From assembly GCA_946479905.1 (NCBI GenBank), contig CAMLIA010000196.1:1-7525 (forward strand): DNA of 7,525 nucleotides, in the 5' to 3' direction. This stretch comes from an uncultured Frankiales bacterium. GTDB lineage: Bacteria; Actinomycetota; Actinomycetes; Mycobacteriales; SCTD01. Of this stretch, positions 1 through 7,345 are shown piece by piece (within the stretch, counting starts at the first letter, position 1; every line of letters starts with the position of its first letter). Under the pieces are notes generated by a model, which was not told the origin of the DNA, did no database searches, and saw only the letters and a program-made list of their open reading frames with translations. Both the position numbers and the translations under genes were made by a program.

Positions 1-177
1 GGCGGTCACGTTGACCGTCGAGGGGGAGGCCTGCTGGTAGGTGGCGGGGTTGGCCGTGACGGACGTGACGGACGCCGAGGCGGCCGTGGCCATCAGCGGG
101 AGCGACACCCCCGTCAGGGTCGCAATGGTGGCGATACCCGCGAGTGCGCGGGTTCCCACCTTTGGCGTTCGGAACAT
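1..177 (-). CDS. Secreted protein, N-terminal part (gene runs off the window)
   Basis: Fifty-nine codons from an ATG at 177-175 run leftward off the window edge. The protein begins MFRTPKVGTRALAGIATIAT, a positively charged n-region followed by a hydrophobic core (about residues 12-30) and a small-residue Ala/Ser stretch (ATAASAS) that suits signal peptidase I cleavage near residue 35. The mature start is rich in Thr, Ser and Val (SVTSVTANPATYQQ), as in surface or Ig-like beta proteins, but too little is present to name a family. A purine-rich GAAAGGGA (190-183) lies 5 nt before the ATG and supports this start. The gene follows the membrane-tethered sigma factor on the same strand, 156 bp downstream, with a strong palindrome between them, so it may have its own promoter. 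That it is exported is fairly sure; the function is unknown. Confidence 0.8.
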   Translation of the reverse strand, partial: MFRTPKVGTRALAGIATIATLTGVSLPLMATAASASVTSVTANPATYQQASPSTVNVTA

Positions 178-283
178 GCAGATCCCTTTCGTTTGCACCA
201 AGCGGCGTTGCCTGGAGCTCAGTTCTGGAGCCCGGTGCTCCGTCCCTGTCGTGCTACCTGCCTGTCCGGCGGGCCGCGGGTCC

Positions 284-319
284 TTCACTCGCTCGGCAAC
301 GCGTTGCCGCTCGAGTGAA
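284..319. repeat. 36-bp near-perfect palindrome, possible terminator of the sigma gene or an operator
   Basis: The 36 bases are centred at 301/302, with arms pairing at all but two adjacent positions (292/311 and 293/310). The core is CGGCAACGCGTTGCCG and the outer arms are TTCACTCG and CGAGTGAA. As minus-strand RNA it could fold into a long hairpin starting 14 nt past the sigma-factor stop codon, without a U-tract. That suits a GC-rich actinobacterial terminator, but a symmetric protein-binding site is also possible. A direct GGTCC lies at 279-283 and again at 321-325, almost exactly flanking the palindrome. Confidence 0.6.
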
Positions 320-333
320 AGGTCCGCTGCCTA

Positions 334-1959
334 CTAGGACGACGGCAGGGGCTCTTGGTCGCGCCCAACAGGGTTTTCTCTCCCTGTGGACAGGTTGGTG
401 GTGGTTGGTCCAAGCGGGACTGTAGACCCATCCGGCGGCGCAGCGCTCGTCTGGTTCGTCCCGCTTGTCGTGAGCGTGGGGAGGGGGTCGTTGGGCCCGC
501 CGACGACCACTCGTTCGGCAAGAACGGTGGTCAGATCCGCTGCGTACAGCGCTTGGACGACGAAGCGGTCGCTGGACGGCAGCGTGCCCGCGGTGGCCGC
601 CGGCAGGGTGAACGTGGTGTCGATGACGACGCTCACGGTCCCGTTCGCGTTGCGCGTGACGTCCGTCGCCGGGGCAGCGTCCGTGGCGCCCAGCTGAGCC
701 GGCACCGCCGCCCCCTCGACCGGCAGAGCGGCATCAGCGTTGTAGGTGACCGACCCGTCCTCGGCGTTGGACAGCGTTTGCGTCAGCACGAGCGGGCCCT
801 GGTCGGTCGCGGCGACGAACTTGCTGAACGCGGCTGTCGTGCCGGCCACCTGGTCGAACGTCTGCGACCCCTGGATCGCCGGACGCGACCTCGCGCTGAG
901 CAGGCCGGACAGGGACAGCCGGCTGGTGGTCTCAGCAGGCGCGACCACGGGATCCACCACCGGGGCTGCCACCGGCGGGCTCGTGGGCTTGTGCACCACC
1001 GGCTTCGAGGGGGCGACGGCAGGAGCGGCAGCCGCGGGGTGCGCCCCGGGCCTCGGCGTCCGTGCATGCACGACGTGAGCGGCAGGCGGGGTGGCGGCGC
1101 GGGCAGGCGCCGCCGTCACGCCCACGGTGCCGTGCGGCAGAGTCGGCTCGCCGAGCAGGCCCTCGAAGGGGCCCGCGGTCGGGAGGGCACCGACCACCTG
1201 CCCGCCCCGGTCACTGCTCCGCAGGCCCAGCACACCTGCCAGCACGAGCAGCAGCGCGACGACAGCAGCGCCGGTGGGCCGGGCTGCTGAGCCGAGCCGC
1301 TCGCGGTTGGCGGCGAGCACGTTGGCGAGGTCGAGGTCCGCGCCGGGCTCGACGTGGGTGCCGACCAGGAGCCGGCGCAGCGAGCGGCGGGCCCGGTGCA
1401 GGATGTGCTTGACCTGCTCGACCGGGACGTCGAGCTCCTCGGCGATCTGCGGGAGCGACTTCTCCTGGACCTCGCGCTTGATGAGCGCCTCGCGGTGCAG
1501 GGGCGACAGCAGCGCGAGCGCCTCCCGGACGAGCGCGGCGTCCTCCGCCGCGACGACCGGGTCGAGCTCCTCGTCCTCGGCCAGCTCGGCACCGACGCTC
1601 TCGAGGTCGACGAGCCGCGGCCGGCGCTGGTCGGCCCGGTAGCGGTCGATGCAGAGGTTGGTGATCGTCCGGCGGGCGTAGGCGAGCGCCTGCAGCTCGT
1701 TGTCGAGCTCCGGCAGCGCGAGGAAGAGCTTGAGGAAGCCCTCCTGGACGACCTCGTCGACGTCACGCTGGTCGTGCAGGAAGCGGCGCGCGTGGAGCGC
1801 GAAGGACCACCGGTGCCGCATGTAAAGGGCAGCGAAGTCGTGCGGGTCGGAGCCGAGCGGACGGGTGGGCTCGAGCAGGTCCCCGCGGTCGTCCACGAAG
1901 ACGGGATCGTCGGCCACAGGGGGCAGCACGACCACGTCCCGCTGGGCGGCCTCCGTCAC
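334..1959 (-). CDS. ECF-like sigma factor with C-terminal transmembrane helix and extracytoplasmic domain
   Basis: The 541-residue protein begins as an RNA polymerase sigma factor. Region 2 covers about residues 41-110 (DVDEVVQEGFLKLF at 66-79; NLCIDRYRAD at 101-110). Region 4 covers about 142-198 (ALALLSPLHREALIKRE, then the helix-turn-helix LPQIAEELDVPVEQVKHILH). A classical ECF factor would end near 200. Here one hydrophobic helix follows (about 229-247, GAAVVALLLVLAGVLGL), preceded by Arg-rich sequence, which predicts the sigma domains in the cytosol. Outside come a Pro/Ala-rich spacer (about 280-345), a beta-rich stretch (about 346-490) and a Thr/Ser-rich tail. GTG at 1959 is the only start codon after the upstream in-frame stop; GGAAG and AGAGG lie just before it. 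The gene ends in TAGTAG. Inference: a membrane-anchored sigma factor activated by signal-dependent release. No anti-sigma gene is adjacent. Confidence 0.9.
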   Translation of the reverse strand: MTEAAQRDVVVLPPVADDPVFVDDRGDLLEPTRPLGSDPHDFAALYMRHRWSFALHARRFLHDQRDVDEVVQEGFLKLFLALPELDNELQALAYARRTITNLCIDRYRADQRRPRLVDLESVGAELAEDEELDPVVAAEDAALVREALALLSPLHREALIKREVQEKSLPQIAEELDVPVEQVKHILHRARRSLRRLLVGTHVEPGADLDLANVLAANRERLGSAARPTGAAVVALLLVLAGVLGLRSSDRGGQVVGALPTAGPFEGLLGEPTLPHGTVGVTAAPARAATPPAAHVVHARTPRPGAHPAAAAPAVAPSKPVVHKPTSPPVAAPVVDPVVAPAETTSRLSLSGLLSARSRPAIQGSQTFDQVAGTTAAFSKFVAATDQGPLVLTQTLSNAEDGSVTYNADAALPVEGAAVPAQLGATDAAPATDVTRNANGTVSVVIDTTFTLPAATAGTLPSSDRFVVQALYAADLTTVLAERVVVGGPNDPLPTLTTSGTNQTSAAPPDGSTVPLGPTTTNLSTGRENPVGRDQEPLPSS

Positions 1960-2007: not shown

Positions 2008-2033
2008 TAGGACGACAAGAGCCTGCCACGGTT
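2008..2033 (-). promoter_or_regulatory. Candidate ECF-type promoter of the sigma-factor gene
   Basis: Read on the minus strand, CAACC carries AAC at 2033-2031 and GTCGTCCTA carries CGTC at 2014-2011, with exactly 16 bases between. AAC-N16/17-CGTC is the general layout of ECF sigma promoters. It would start transcription near 2002-2005, giving a 5' leader of roughly 45 nt before the GTG at 1959. As the gene encodes an ECF-like factor, autoregulation is a reasonable inference. The bases further upstream (about 2041-2100) are distinctly AT-richer than the surroundings and may hold other control sites; I could not assign them. Confidence 0.4.
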
Positions 2034-2132
2034 GCTGCTGCGAACAAGTTTTAGCCATTTCGAACTATGCGTAATCGTGATCTTGGTCAGAGTTAGGGAT
2101 GTCTGTCCGCTTCGCGCGTTTGGACCGGTGCT

Positions 2133-4181: not shown

Positions 4182-5153
4182 TTAGTGACCGGACGCGAGC
4201 CGGGCGTTGTCGATGACGATGGCCGCGGGCCCCTCGATGAGCTTCAGGGTGGACAGCGCCGTCTCGCCGAACGCCTGCTTGACGGCTGACGAGAGCGCGA
4301 GCACGCCGACGACCGAGCCGCCGTGGCCGCGGAGCGGCATGGACAGGAAGGTGGCCATCTCGACGCCACCGGTCAGCTCGTCAGGGTCCTCGACGATCTT
4401 GCCGCCGGCCTCGGCGACCCGGACGTCGAGACCCGACACGTCCAGCTGCGAGCCGCCGTAGGACGACAGGCCCTCGACCGCGGCGGTGAGGAACTCGTCG
4501 TAGTGGGAGCGGGCCGTGGGCTGCCCCACCGCGAGGTAGGCGGACTTCTCGGCGCCGAGCATGACCGCGGCCAGGTCGTAGCCGACGAACCGCTGCAGCA
4601 CGCCCAGCAGCGCCGCGACGGAGGCCTCCAGGCCGTTGGCGGTGGCGGCGATGGCCATCACCGACTGGGCGACGGAGGACTCGAAGAGCTTGCGGTCGAG
4701 CAGGTCGCAGACCCGGGACAGCACGTCCTCCTCGGTCAGCTCGAGGGTGTCCGGCGCCAGCCGGGCGCGGCCACCCCGCGCGGCGGTGGCGGCCATGAGG
4801 ACCTCCTCGATGGTGCCGGAGAGCTCCGGCGCCTCGAAGTCCTTGGTGAGGTAGCGGTCGACGCCGGCCTGACCGGCCCAGTAGCGGTCGGAGGCGGCGT
4901 CGAGGGAGGTCAGCATGATCACCGGGATGTCCGCGGTCTGCCAGTCGTCCTTGAGCAGCCGGGCGGCGATGAAGCCGGAGACGCGTGGCATCTGCACGTC
5001 GAGCACGACCGCGTCGGGCTGCTCCTTGAAGACGGCCTGGACGGCCTCGATGCCGTCCTCGGCGGCCACGACCTCGTGGCCCTCCTTGGTCAGCACACTC
5101 GTCACGATCCTGCGCAGGGTCGGCGAGTCGTCCGCGATCACGATCCTTGCCAT
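4182..5153 (-). CDS. Response regulator with receiver and GAF domains
   Basis: The 323-residue protein starts with a CheY-like receiver domain (about residues 2-120). The acid pocket is D8/D9, the phosphoacceptor is D52 in LDVQMP, T82 sits in MLTS and K104 in LTKD, so all phosphorylation residues are intact. A helical linker (about 125-160) leads to a GAF-like domain (about 160-318), recognised by the pattern MATFLSMPLRGHGGSVVGVLAL near 266-287 and a closing helix AIVIDNARL. There is no DNA-binding or enzymatic output domain, so output is probably by protein contact or ligand-gated signalling. The ATG at 5153-5151 shares one base with the cheA stop (TGATG), and AGGA lies five nt upstream inside cheA, which points to coupled translation. 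The likely phosphodonor is the upstream CheA. The GAF ligand is unknown. Confidence 0.88.
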   Translation of the reverse strand: MARIVIADDSPTLRRIVTSVLTKEGHEVVAAEDGIEAVQAVFKEQPDAVVLDVQMPRVSGFIAARLLKDDWQTADIPVIMLTSLDAASDRYWAGQAGVDRYLTKDFEAPELSGTIEEVLMAATAARGGRARLAPDTLELTEEDVLSRVCDLLDRKLFESSVAQSVMAIAATANGLEASVAALLGVLQRFVGYDLAAVMLGAEKSAYLAVGQPTARSHYDEFLTAAVEGLSSYGGSQLDVSGLDVRVAEAGGKIVEDPDELTGGVEMATFLSMPLRGHGGSVVGVLALSSAVKQAFGETALSTLKLIEGPAAIVIDNARLASGH

Positions 5154-7345
5154 CAGCGTCCTACCAGCCTTCGCACCGTCGACACCAGCTGCTCCTGGTC
5201 GAACTCGTTCTTCAACAGGTAGGCGGAGCAGCCCGCCTCGAGCCCAGCCTGCCGCGCATGGTCCTCACCACGGCTGGTCATGATGATGACCGGGACGTTC
5301 TCCCAGCCCTTGGTACGACGGATCGTACGCGTGAGGTCGAAGCCGTCCATGCCCGGCATCTCCACGTCCGACAGCACCAGGTCGGCCGGGTCGTCCCGCA
5401 GCCGGGAGGCGCCGTCGAGGCCGTCGACCGCGGTCTCGACGAGGTAGCCCGCGGCCTCGAGGATGACCCGCTCGAGCTCCCGGACGCCCACGGAGTCCTC
5501 GACGACCAGGATGCGGGCCCGCTTCCCCGTGGGGGTCGTGGCCGCCTTCCGGCCGACGGGGGCGGACGGTACGGCGTAGGTGGTCGTCCCGACGGCGCGG
5601 TCCGCCAGCTCCCGCAGGTCCAGCAGGCACACGACGGAGCCGTCCCCGTCGATGGTCGCCCCGGCGACGTAGGGGACCCGGCCGAGGAAGGAGCCCATGT
5701 CCTTCACGACCAGCTCGGACTCGCCCTCGAGGCGGTCGACCGCCCAGGCGATCTGCCGGCCGGAGGTGTGGCGCACGACCAGGGCGGCGCGCGGGGCCTC
5801 CCCGCTGTCGCGCTCCAGGCCGAGGGCCGCGCCCAGGTCGAGCAGGGGGACCGACACGCCGTGGCGGAGGACCACCGGGGCACCGGCGAGCGTGTGGACC
5901 TCGGCGTCCCGCAGCGACAGGGACTCGACGACGCCGGGGACCGGCACGGCGTACCGCTCGTCGCCGACCCGCGCGACCAGGCAGCGGAGCACGCCCAGGG
6001 TGACGGGCAGGGTGAGGACGAAGGAGGTGCCGGTGCCGCGCTCGGAGCGCACCTCGACCGAGCCGCCGAGCTCCTCGACCGCGTCGCGCACGACGTCGAG
6101 GCCGACACCGCGGCCGCTGGTCTCGGTGACGGTCTCGGAGGTGCTGAAGGAGGGGGTGAAGAGCAGCGCGAGCAGGGCCGAGCCGACCAACGGGCTGTCG
6201 GCGGGGATCATGCCGAGCCCGATGGCCTTCTCGCGCACGGCGTCCTCGTCGACGCCGGCCCCGTCGTCGCTGACCTCGATGACGACGGTGCCGCCGACGG
6301 ACCTCGCCGCAACGGTCACCGTGGCGCGCGCCGGCTTGCCTGCTGCGACGCGGTCCTCGGGCGCCTCGCAGCCGTGGTCGACGGCGTTGATGACGAGGTG
6401 CTTGAGGGCGTCGGCGACGCCGTCGAGGACCTGCTTGTCGAGCTCGACGTCCTCGCCGGTGGTGACCAGCTCGACGTCCTTGCCGGTTGCCTGCGCGACG
6501 TCGCGCAGGATGCGCGGCAGGGCGGCGAGGACCCGGCGGACCGGGACCATCGCCAGGCCCATCGCGCCGTCGCGGACCAGGGCCATGCCCCCGCGGTGGC
6601 CCTCGACGAGCTCGCGCAGGCCGCGCACGGTGCCCGCCATCTCGTCCGAGGCGCCGACCAGTCGGTGCAGGGCGAGGACCACGTCCGGCGGCAGCGCGGC
6701 CGCGTGCTTGTGGGTGGCCTGCCGCAGCACGCCGGCCCAGCGCGCCTGGTCGGCGGCCAGCGTGAGCAGGGTGCCGGTCGTCTGCTCGACGCGGCGGGCG
6801 CCCAGGTCGGCCTCTCCGACGACGTCGAGCAGGTCGTAGACCTTGGAGGCCGCCACCCGCACCGAGTCCGAGCCCTGGCGGCTGGACGGCACGTCCTCGA
6901 CCGGGAGTGCCTGCTCGGGCACCTCGACGACAGCCAGCGCCGGGACCGCGCACGGGTCGGCACCGGCGACGGCGGCCACGAGCGCGTCGACGATCGGCTG
7001 CAGGGCGGCGTCGTCCAGCGCGTCCTCACCGGGCAGCGCGCGGGAGATGCCGTCGCAGGCGGCCAGCAGCAGGTCGACGTGGTCATTGCGCACGGCGAAC
7101 CGGCCGTCGCGCAGGGCGCCGAGCAGGTCCTCCATGTTGTGGGCGACGTGCAGCACGCCCTCGAGGCCGAGCATCCGCGCGGAGCCCTTGACGGTGTGCG
7201 CGTCGCGGAACAGCAGCGTCACGACCTGCCGGGGCGACTGGTGGGTCTCGAGCTGCAGCAGCCCGGACTGCAGCGAGGCCAGCCGCTCCTCGACCTCGGC
7301 GCGGAAGGTCGCCAGGAGCTCTGGATCGTCACCCCATGCCGGCAT
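5153..7345 (-). CDS. cheA: Hybrid chemotaxis histidine kinase CheA with C-terminal receiver domain
   Basis: The 730-residue hybrid CheA has these domains in order: HPt (about 5-125) with phosphorylated H50 in RDAHTVKGSARMLG; a short linker with no recognisable P2 domain; a dimerisation helix pair (about 160-255); a HATPase (about 260-447) with N-box HLVINAVDHG (N320), G1 SDDGAGVD (D360), FTPSFST at 396-402 and G2 GRGVGLDVV at 411-419; a CheW-like domain (about 448-585) for coupling to receptors; and a receiver (about 609-728) with E616/D617, phosphoacceptor D660 in LSDVEMPGMDG, T690 and K712. All catalytic residues are present. It follows a receptor gene (94 bp gap) and overlaps a REC-GAF gene. 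The ATG at 7345 is the only ATG/GTG/TTG before an in-frame stop at 7393, yet the one strong Shine-Dalgarno is 25 nt away. Confidence 0.95.
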   Translation of the reverse strand: MPAWGDDPELLATFRAEVEERLASLQSGLLQLETHQSPRQVVTLLFRDAHTVKGSARMLGLEGVLHVAHNMEDLLGALRDGRFAVRNDHVDLLLAACDGISRALPGEDALDDAALQPIVDALVAAVAGADPCAVPALAVVEVPEQALPVEDVPSSRQGSDSVRVAASKVYDLLDVVGEADLGARRVEQTTGTLLTLAADQARWAGVLRQATHKHAAALPPDVVLALHRLVGASDEMAGTVRGLRELVEGHRGGMALVRDGAMGLAMVPVRRVLAALPRILRDVAQATGKDVELVTTGEDVELDKQVLDGVADALKHLVINAVDHGCEAPEDRVAAGKPARATVTVAARSVGGTVVIEVSDDGAGVDEDAVREKAIGLGMIPADSPLVGSALLALLFTPSFSTSETVTETSGRGVGLDVVRDAVEELGGSVEVRSERGTGTSFVLTLPVTLGVLRCLVARVGDERYAVPVPGVVESLSLRDAEVHTLAGAPVVLRHGVSVPLLDLGAALGLERDSGEAPRAALVVRHTSGRQIAWAVDRLEGESELVVKDMGSFLGRVPYVAGATIDGDGSVVCLLDLRELADRAVGTTTYAVPSAPVGRKAATTPTGKRARILVVEDSVGVRELERVILEAAGYLVETAVDGLDGASRLRDDPADLVLSDVEMPGMDGFDLTRTIRRTKGWENVPVIIMTSRGEDHARQAGLEAGCSAYLLKNEFDQEQLVSTVRRLVGR

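Follow-up and report, generated by a model that had tools for sequence, protein, structure and literature searches.

Several ECF sigma factors that are fused to membrane segments are already known, namely those of groups ECF48, ECF52 and ECF53, and IutY. In Streptomyces coelicolor the ECF52 protein SCO4117 is an actinobacterial sigma factor fused to a TM segment, a proline-rich region and an outside domain, for which proteolytic release has been proposed (PMC5826349; PMC8999054). ECF48 and ECF53 are likewise actinobacterial C-terminal fusions with a long extension, in which one to two TM helices and a zinc-finger domain have been described, while IutY (ECF243) from Pseudomonas putida combines a sigma factor with its membrane regulator in one protein and has been shown to be released by Prc and RseP (PMC8999054). 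ECF41 and ECF56 (SigJ, SigG1) carry a C-terminal extension and function without a classical anti-sigma factor. This extension is a SnoaL-like domain, and to our knowledge these proteins have neither a TM segment nor an outside domain.

The sigma factor described here is encoded in a 7,525-nucleotide stretch of DNA (the window) and resembles each of these systems in part. It has a TM segment and a proline-rich extension of the ECF52 type, as judged from hydropathy and composition. ECF52, however, carries a carbohydrate-binding module as well as a zinc finger (pfam13490); searches here gave no zinc finger and, for the outside domain, no match to a known module. The absence of a zinc signature also distinguishes the protein from ECF48 and ECF53. 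IutY differs in having a membrane anti-sigma part and in serving a siderophore system; no anti-sigma domain was found here. The structure of SigG1 (7qh5) was among the sequence and fold matches of the sigma part, but the SnoaL-like extension of ECF41 and ECF56 is a different one. The first-pass annotation had described a one-protein layout without a recognised anti-sigma factor, and this description stands; the membrane-fused ECF architecture itself is less new than was implied, given the published ECF48, ECF52 (SCO4117), ECF53 and IutY. Set against published descriptions, what is new is the lack of a recognisable anti-sigma domain, the unmatched ectodomain and, in part of the members, an Ig-like neighbour. 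A literature search outside the main ECF classification (2021) returned no description of the family, which may already carry an ECF number.

Layout and conservation of the sigma factor

The gene and the parts of its product are as follows (alignment A1 is defined below):

334..1959, minus strand: membrane-tethered ECF sigma factor gene, an uninterrupted ORF of 541 aa with a GTG start
1366..1839, minus strand: sigma regions 2 to 4, residues 41-198, with Pfam and TIGR02937 matches and ECF sigma factor matches in the PDB
1279..1365, minus strand: short, conserved juxtamembrane linker, residues 199-227, with invariant or near-invariant columns in alignment A1
1222..1278, minus strand: single TM helix, residues 228-246, Kyte-Doolittle 2.28
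925..1218, minus strand: Pro/Ala-rich spacer, residues 248-345, with 19 Pro and 21 Ala in 98 residues and mostly pLDDT <50
502..921, minus strand: all-beta outside domain of ten strands, residues 347-486, from the AlphaFold2 model and a held-out profile

A Pfam scan placed Sigma70_r2 at residues 47-113 (E 9.3e-12) and Sigma70_r4_2 at residues 143-194 (E 2e-10), both above cut-off, and TIGR02937 (sigma70-ECF) scored 88 bits against a cut-off of 42.9. Sigma region 3 reached only 14.2 of the 25.3 bits needed in the Pfam scan; the presence of regions 2 and 4 without region 3 is that of an ECF (group 4 sigma-70) factor, and the best PDB relatives of the sigma part, both by sequence and by fold, are ECF sigma factors. 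Topology of this protein and of the family was assigned from hydropathy and charge. The top 19-residue Kyte-Doolittle window starts at residue 228 and is the sole peak of at least 1.6 in the protein. As the first-pass annotation had proposed, the sigma regions, the TM helix, the Pro/Ala-rich spacer and the beta-rich part lie in one frame.

The beta-rich part was modelled by AlphaFold2 as a domain of ten strands within residues 347-486; in the full protein its ten-residue blocks average 77-97, mostly above 90. Residues 338-498 modelled alone gave a pLDDT of 92.5 and a pTM of 0.87, so that the outside domain is confidently folded as predicted. Its lack of a recognised relative, suspected earlier from the sequence, persisted in database searches: the C-terminal half of the protein had no Pfam match at E≤1, and the domain had no match in the PDB or BFVD at E≤0.001 in fold searches. 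No Pfam or significant fold match to a carbohydrate-binding module was obtained, absence in fold searches being no proof.

Of 303 proteins that match the sigma factor at E≤1e-5, we examined the 120 listed. Sixty of these are 490-650 aa long and 37-78% identical to the query; this length class is represented by alignment A1, which comprises 61 proteins. A profile of the outside domain, derived from half of the homologues and applied to the ones held out, detected the domain in 57 of the 60 (all except P0024, P0035 and P0067). The held-out profile detected it in none of the 49 examined homologues of 395-480 aa, which by consensus consist of a sigma domain and a Pro/Ser-rich tail, and in none of the 11 shorter ones. 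In Pfam searches with the A1 proteins, weak matches alone appeared beside the sigma and HTH models, with DUF7645 in 10 proteins (best E 0.02). G388, Q394, G440 and E482 are near-invariant in the outside domain. A TM-like peak of at least 1.6 is present in 119 of 121 proteins (the 120 examined homologues and the query); no TM segment was seen in the L034 relative. K and R together are commoner in the 30 residues before the TM segment than in those after it in 100 of 116 proteins, which fits a sigma domain inside and a tail outside. A match at E≤1e-25 was obtained in 15 of the 41 genomes searched around the L001 genome, L001 being one of the 41.

Recurrence of the outside domain also bears on whether a sequencing or assembly frameshift joined a sigma gene to a separate downstream gene. 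Because the same domain occurs in 57 of the 120 examined homologues, all from the long class and from many contigs, the fusion is not a frameshift product. The gene moreover runs in a single frame with a GC3 of 0.89, and no point in favour of a frameshift was found; we rejected this explanation as extremely improbable.

In a separate case, the sigma gene of L023 (L023:11-679, minus strand) has an in-frame stop and reaches the contig end, and is either a broken copy or an assembly error.

Anti-sigma domains and the juxtamembrane segment

Signatures of known anti-sigma elements were sought in the family. The zinc anti-sigma signature HxxxCxxC was found in none of the 121 proteins, and none of the 61 proteins of alignment A1 has a Pfam match at E≤0.1 to an anti-sigma, zinc-finger or ZAS model. 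By the same Pfam search a fused membrane anti-sigma domain as in ECF243 (IutY) is absent from the 61 proteins, and a zinc-finger-bearing C-terminal extension as in ECF48 and ECF53 is absent both by Pfam (61 proteins) and by the HxxxCxxC scan (121). There is also no anti-sigma gene beside the sigma gene within the window. As far as the window extends, the flanks consist of a divergent cysS on one side and the 59-codon start of a signal-peptide-like gene on the other, and the earlier observation that no anti-sigma gene is adjacent is upheld to that extent.

The segment between the sigma domain and the membrane is short. The gap from the GT after sigma region 4 to the TM segment has a median of 33 aa (range 19-167, 116 proteins), and linker 199-227 falls far short of a class I anti-sigma domain, for which a mean length of about 100 has been given (PMC7406223). 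The linker is nevertheless well conserved: among the 61 proteins V203 and P205 are invariant, and G200, T201, G206, D208 and L209 occur in at least 90%. In the AlphaFold2 model residues 211-247 form a helix, with low-confidence block means of 45-67 and no packing seen. Silencing of the sigma domain without an anti-sigma domain might come about by simple confinement to the membrane, or the conserved juxtamembrane segment might itself be a small inhibitor.

Neighbouring genes and a putative promoter motif

On its upstream side the sigma gene is followed in the window by the divergent cysS, a Uma2-type gene, a GAF-domain response regulator and a CheA-like hybrid kinase. The order kinase-regulator/cysS/sigma is common to the window, L001 (Frankiales MAG RYN_109), L021, L022 and L023. 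The kinase (Hpt-HATPase-CheW-receiver) and the receiver-GAF protein occupy positions 4182-7345 of the window, minus strand, and are kept in the same four relatives; in L001 a chemoreceptor-like ORF, recognised by eye (L001:1-597), lies before the kinase and ends at the locus edge.

The downstream side and the intergenic stretches contain the following features:

1..177, minus strand: first 59 codons of the downstream gene, judged by eye to resemble a signal peptide; the gene continues past the window end
178..333, minus strand: leader of the downstream gene, with a strong long hairpin
338..362, minus strand: GCGACC-N15-CGTC, a putative ECF-type promoter for the downstream gene, which overlaps the final codons of the sigma gene and lies 160 nt upstream of the ATG
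2011..2035, minus strand: GCAACC-N15-CGTC, a putative ECF-type promoter for the sigma gene, which lies 51 nt upstream of the GTG

The downstream gene and the motif that precedes both genes lie outside the interval considered in the first-pass annotation and may be the most informative part of the locus. In the window, L001, L021, L025 and L030, a gene with a signal-peptide-like start, encoded on the sigma strand, begins 157-349 nt past the sigma stop codon; these are the 5 of 12 loci with enough downstream sequence in which a secreted-type gene is directly next (the L022, L023, L029 and L032 sequences run no further than the sigma gene or its vicinity). L025 and L030 encode sigma factors of the shorter class. 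The secreted-type protein has 1243 aa in L001 and at least 408 aa in L021. Pfam matches to Ig-like domains were obtained in four relatives, to Big_1 in L001 (E 2.9e-6), L030 (2.2e-7) and L025 (4.7e-10) and to Big_7 in L021 (E 1.6e-4), with only L025 above the curated cut-off. In L034 a large secreted-type protein, recognised by eye and lacking a Pfam match, is encoded next to the sigma gene. The filter used detected no secreted-type gene downstream in L024, L031 and L033.

In L026-L028, which belong to the shorter class, a gene for a membrane protein of 325-327 aa comes first after the sigma gene. These hydrophobic proteins are encoded 11-65 nt after it (L026:3550-4527, minus; L027:7654-8634, plus; L028:6450-7433, minus); the one scanned, from L027, has no Pfam or NCBIfam match, and a role as partner of the tethered sigma factor is possible. 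In L026 and L028 a secreted-type protein follows the membrane protein; a stretch of it matches the L001 Ig-like protein (tblastn E 3e-11 and 6e-15).

The leader of the downstream gene folds stably. Positions 178-340 of the window, minus strand, gave a fold of -76.2 kcal/mol (z -3.99, none of 200 shuffles as good), mostly one long hairpin, with no Rfam match above gathering. The leaders of the Ig-like genes in L025 and L030 have an exact block in common, ACACGCTGATCAGGTGC (L025:11190-11206 and L030:5021-5037), with conserved flanks; the block, likewise without an Rfam match above gathering, is perhaps a leader RNA.

ECF promoters have a two-part form, and in actinobacteria the elements are of AAC type at -35 and CGTC type at -10. 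When intergenic stretches were aligned, a motif of this form, GACGACC-N15-CGTC, was first noticed by eye ahead of both the sigma gene and the downstream gene. We counted it in ten 260-nt regions, consisting of the sigma upstreams of 5 cysS-linked loci and the upstreams of 5 downstream genes. ACC-N15-CGTC occurs on the sense strand in 9 of the ten, a count made on the same regions in which the motif was found, which were chosen after it had been seen and some of which are related; in L022 the ACC is replaced by ACGACT. Other spacings in these regions gave no matches at 13, 14, 16, 17 and 18, three at 12, two at 8 and one each at 9 and 20. In 2,000 dinucleotide shuffle sets the mean was 0.31 regions, with maxima of 3 at spacing 15 and 4 at any spacing of 8-24. 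Upstreams of other genes at the same loci had the motif in 0 of 20 cases.

Among 15 sigma upstreams the strict motif is present in 6 (window, L001, L021, L023, L027 and L028). It is absent from those of L025 and L030 and from the regions before the downstream genes of L024 and L034. Outside the ten regions, GGAACC-N15-CGTC precedes the secreted-protein gene of L026. When all bases of 16 loci were searched, GACGACC-N-CGTC occurred 12 times each at spacings 13 and 16 and 6 times at spacing 15, and all 6 of the latter precede a sigma or secreted-protein gene.

Whole-genome searches gave a different result. In four genomes there were 55 matches at spacing 15 (20, 11, 7 and 17) versus 51 for the reversed pattern, and 181 at spacing 14 (48, 47, 20 and 66) versus 35 reversed; these counts are therefore dominated by other sequence and lend the motif no support. 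The stricter RCRACC-N15-CGTC-YTA had 6 matches in seven genomes versus 18 reversed. Of the 7 sites known beforehand in those genomes it recovered just 2, and its other 4 matches overlap apparent ORFs. A genome-wide regulon is not supported, there being no enrichment of the motif over its reversed patterns. It is position at the locus alone that argues for a promoter.

In several promoters an AAGTT/AACTT-like element was seen by eye about 15-20 nt before the -35-like element (about 2040-2060 of the window, minus strand, and in relatives); it is perhaps an UP element or an activator site.

Proposed switch and competing explanations

The layout and its conservation, the lack of a recognised anti-sigma domain, the neighbouring gene and the shared motif are observations on sequence and model. 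The reading of them that we prefer, with a probability of about 0.55, is a surface-signalling switch in one polypeptide, in which a tethered sigma factor is released by proteolysis and activates its own gene and the neighbouring one. The TM helix would keep the ECF sigma domain at the inner face of the membrane, and the folded beta domain, carried on the Pro/Ala-rich stalk, would reach into the cell wall or past it. The switch would be triggered when the outside domain meets a signal or loses a wall partner. Cleavage outside and then within the membrane, by a protease of the site-2 type, would most likely free the sigma domain, which would guide RNA polymerase to the GACGACC-N15-CGTC-like promoter of its own gene, giving positive feedback, and to the promoter of the gene next to it, whose product would be a secreted Ig-like surface protein.

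We infer that the sigma factor is inactive while tethered and reads a motif of the ACC-N15-CGTC type; from the position of this motif, it probably activates both genes. Release by proteolysis after outside sensing appears the likeliest switch by analogy, because the closest published cases, SCO4117 and IutY, have been explained in this way. Site-2 proteases (PF02163) were found in 3 of 3 genomes searched; as they were likewise found in 14 of 14 control genomes, their presence says little about proteolytic release. A tentative, and on balance doubtful, extension is a closed local feedback loop of sensor, transducer, sigma factor and target, in which a family of such one-protein switches, lacking an anti-sigma domain, uses an ectodomain of unsolved fold to watch the surface, perhaps the target Ig-like protein itself.

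If the switch operates as proposed, it would constitute a minimal route from surface to promoter, with one protein, one membrane pass and a target next door, and would raise the question of how a sigma factor stays inactive without an anti-sigma domain. It would also supply a candidate promoter/sigma pair for GACGACC-N15-CGTC and a handle on the large Ig-like proteins that little-studied actinobacteria of the Frankiales type secrete.

Other explanations differ in how activity is controlled. Segment 199-227 might be a minimal anti-sigma element that folds back on sigma regions 2 and 4, with the outside domain steering it by conformational change or cleavage. Its conservation among the 61 proteins and the modelled helix at 211-247 are consistent with this, but the model has low confidence there and shows no packing, and Pfam finds an anti-sigma match in none of the 61; we regard such an element as rather unlikely. 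It is also conceivable that the full-length sigma factor is active uncleaved and engages RNA polymerase while still in the membrane, thereby linking export of the surface protein to transcription of its gene. No recognised anti-sigma domain restrains the sigma domain, the putative target is secreted, and there is precedent in transcription factors such as CadC, which are integrated in the membrane and act without being released from it. No sigma factor of this kind turned up in the literature search, however, and for the published tethered cases release by proteolysis has been proposed (ECF48, ECF52 and ECF53) or shown (IutY), making activity in the tethered state unlikely.

The tail could, alternatively, be mainly an anchor and the outside domain have no sensing role; transcription of the sigma gene, or an unlinked anti-sigma factor, would then determine activity. 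The 49 of 120 examined relatives that have a Pro/Ser-rich tail in its place would accord with such an arrangement. A domain that is confidently folded in the model, recurs in 57 of the 60 long members and retains near-invariant residues is not readily explained by anchoring, which we consider improbable. Release of the tethered sigma factor by proteolysis remains the explanation that we favour.

The L001 genome encodes, in addition, a paralogous ECF sigma factor with 29% identity to the query (L003:1309-2640, plus strand). By eye, its sigma region 4 is followed by a hydrophobic stretch and a long tail, and it is perhaps another tethered ECF sigma factor in the same cell.
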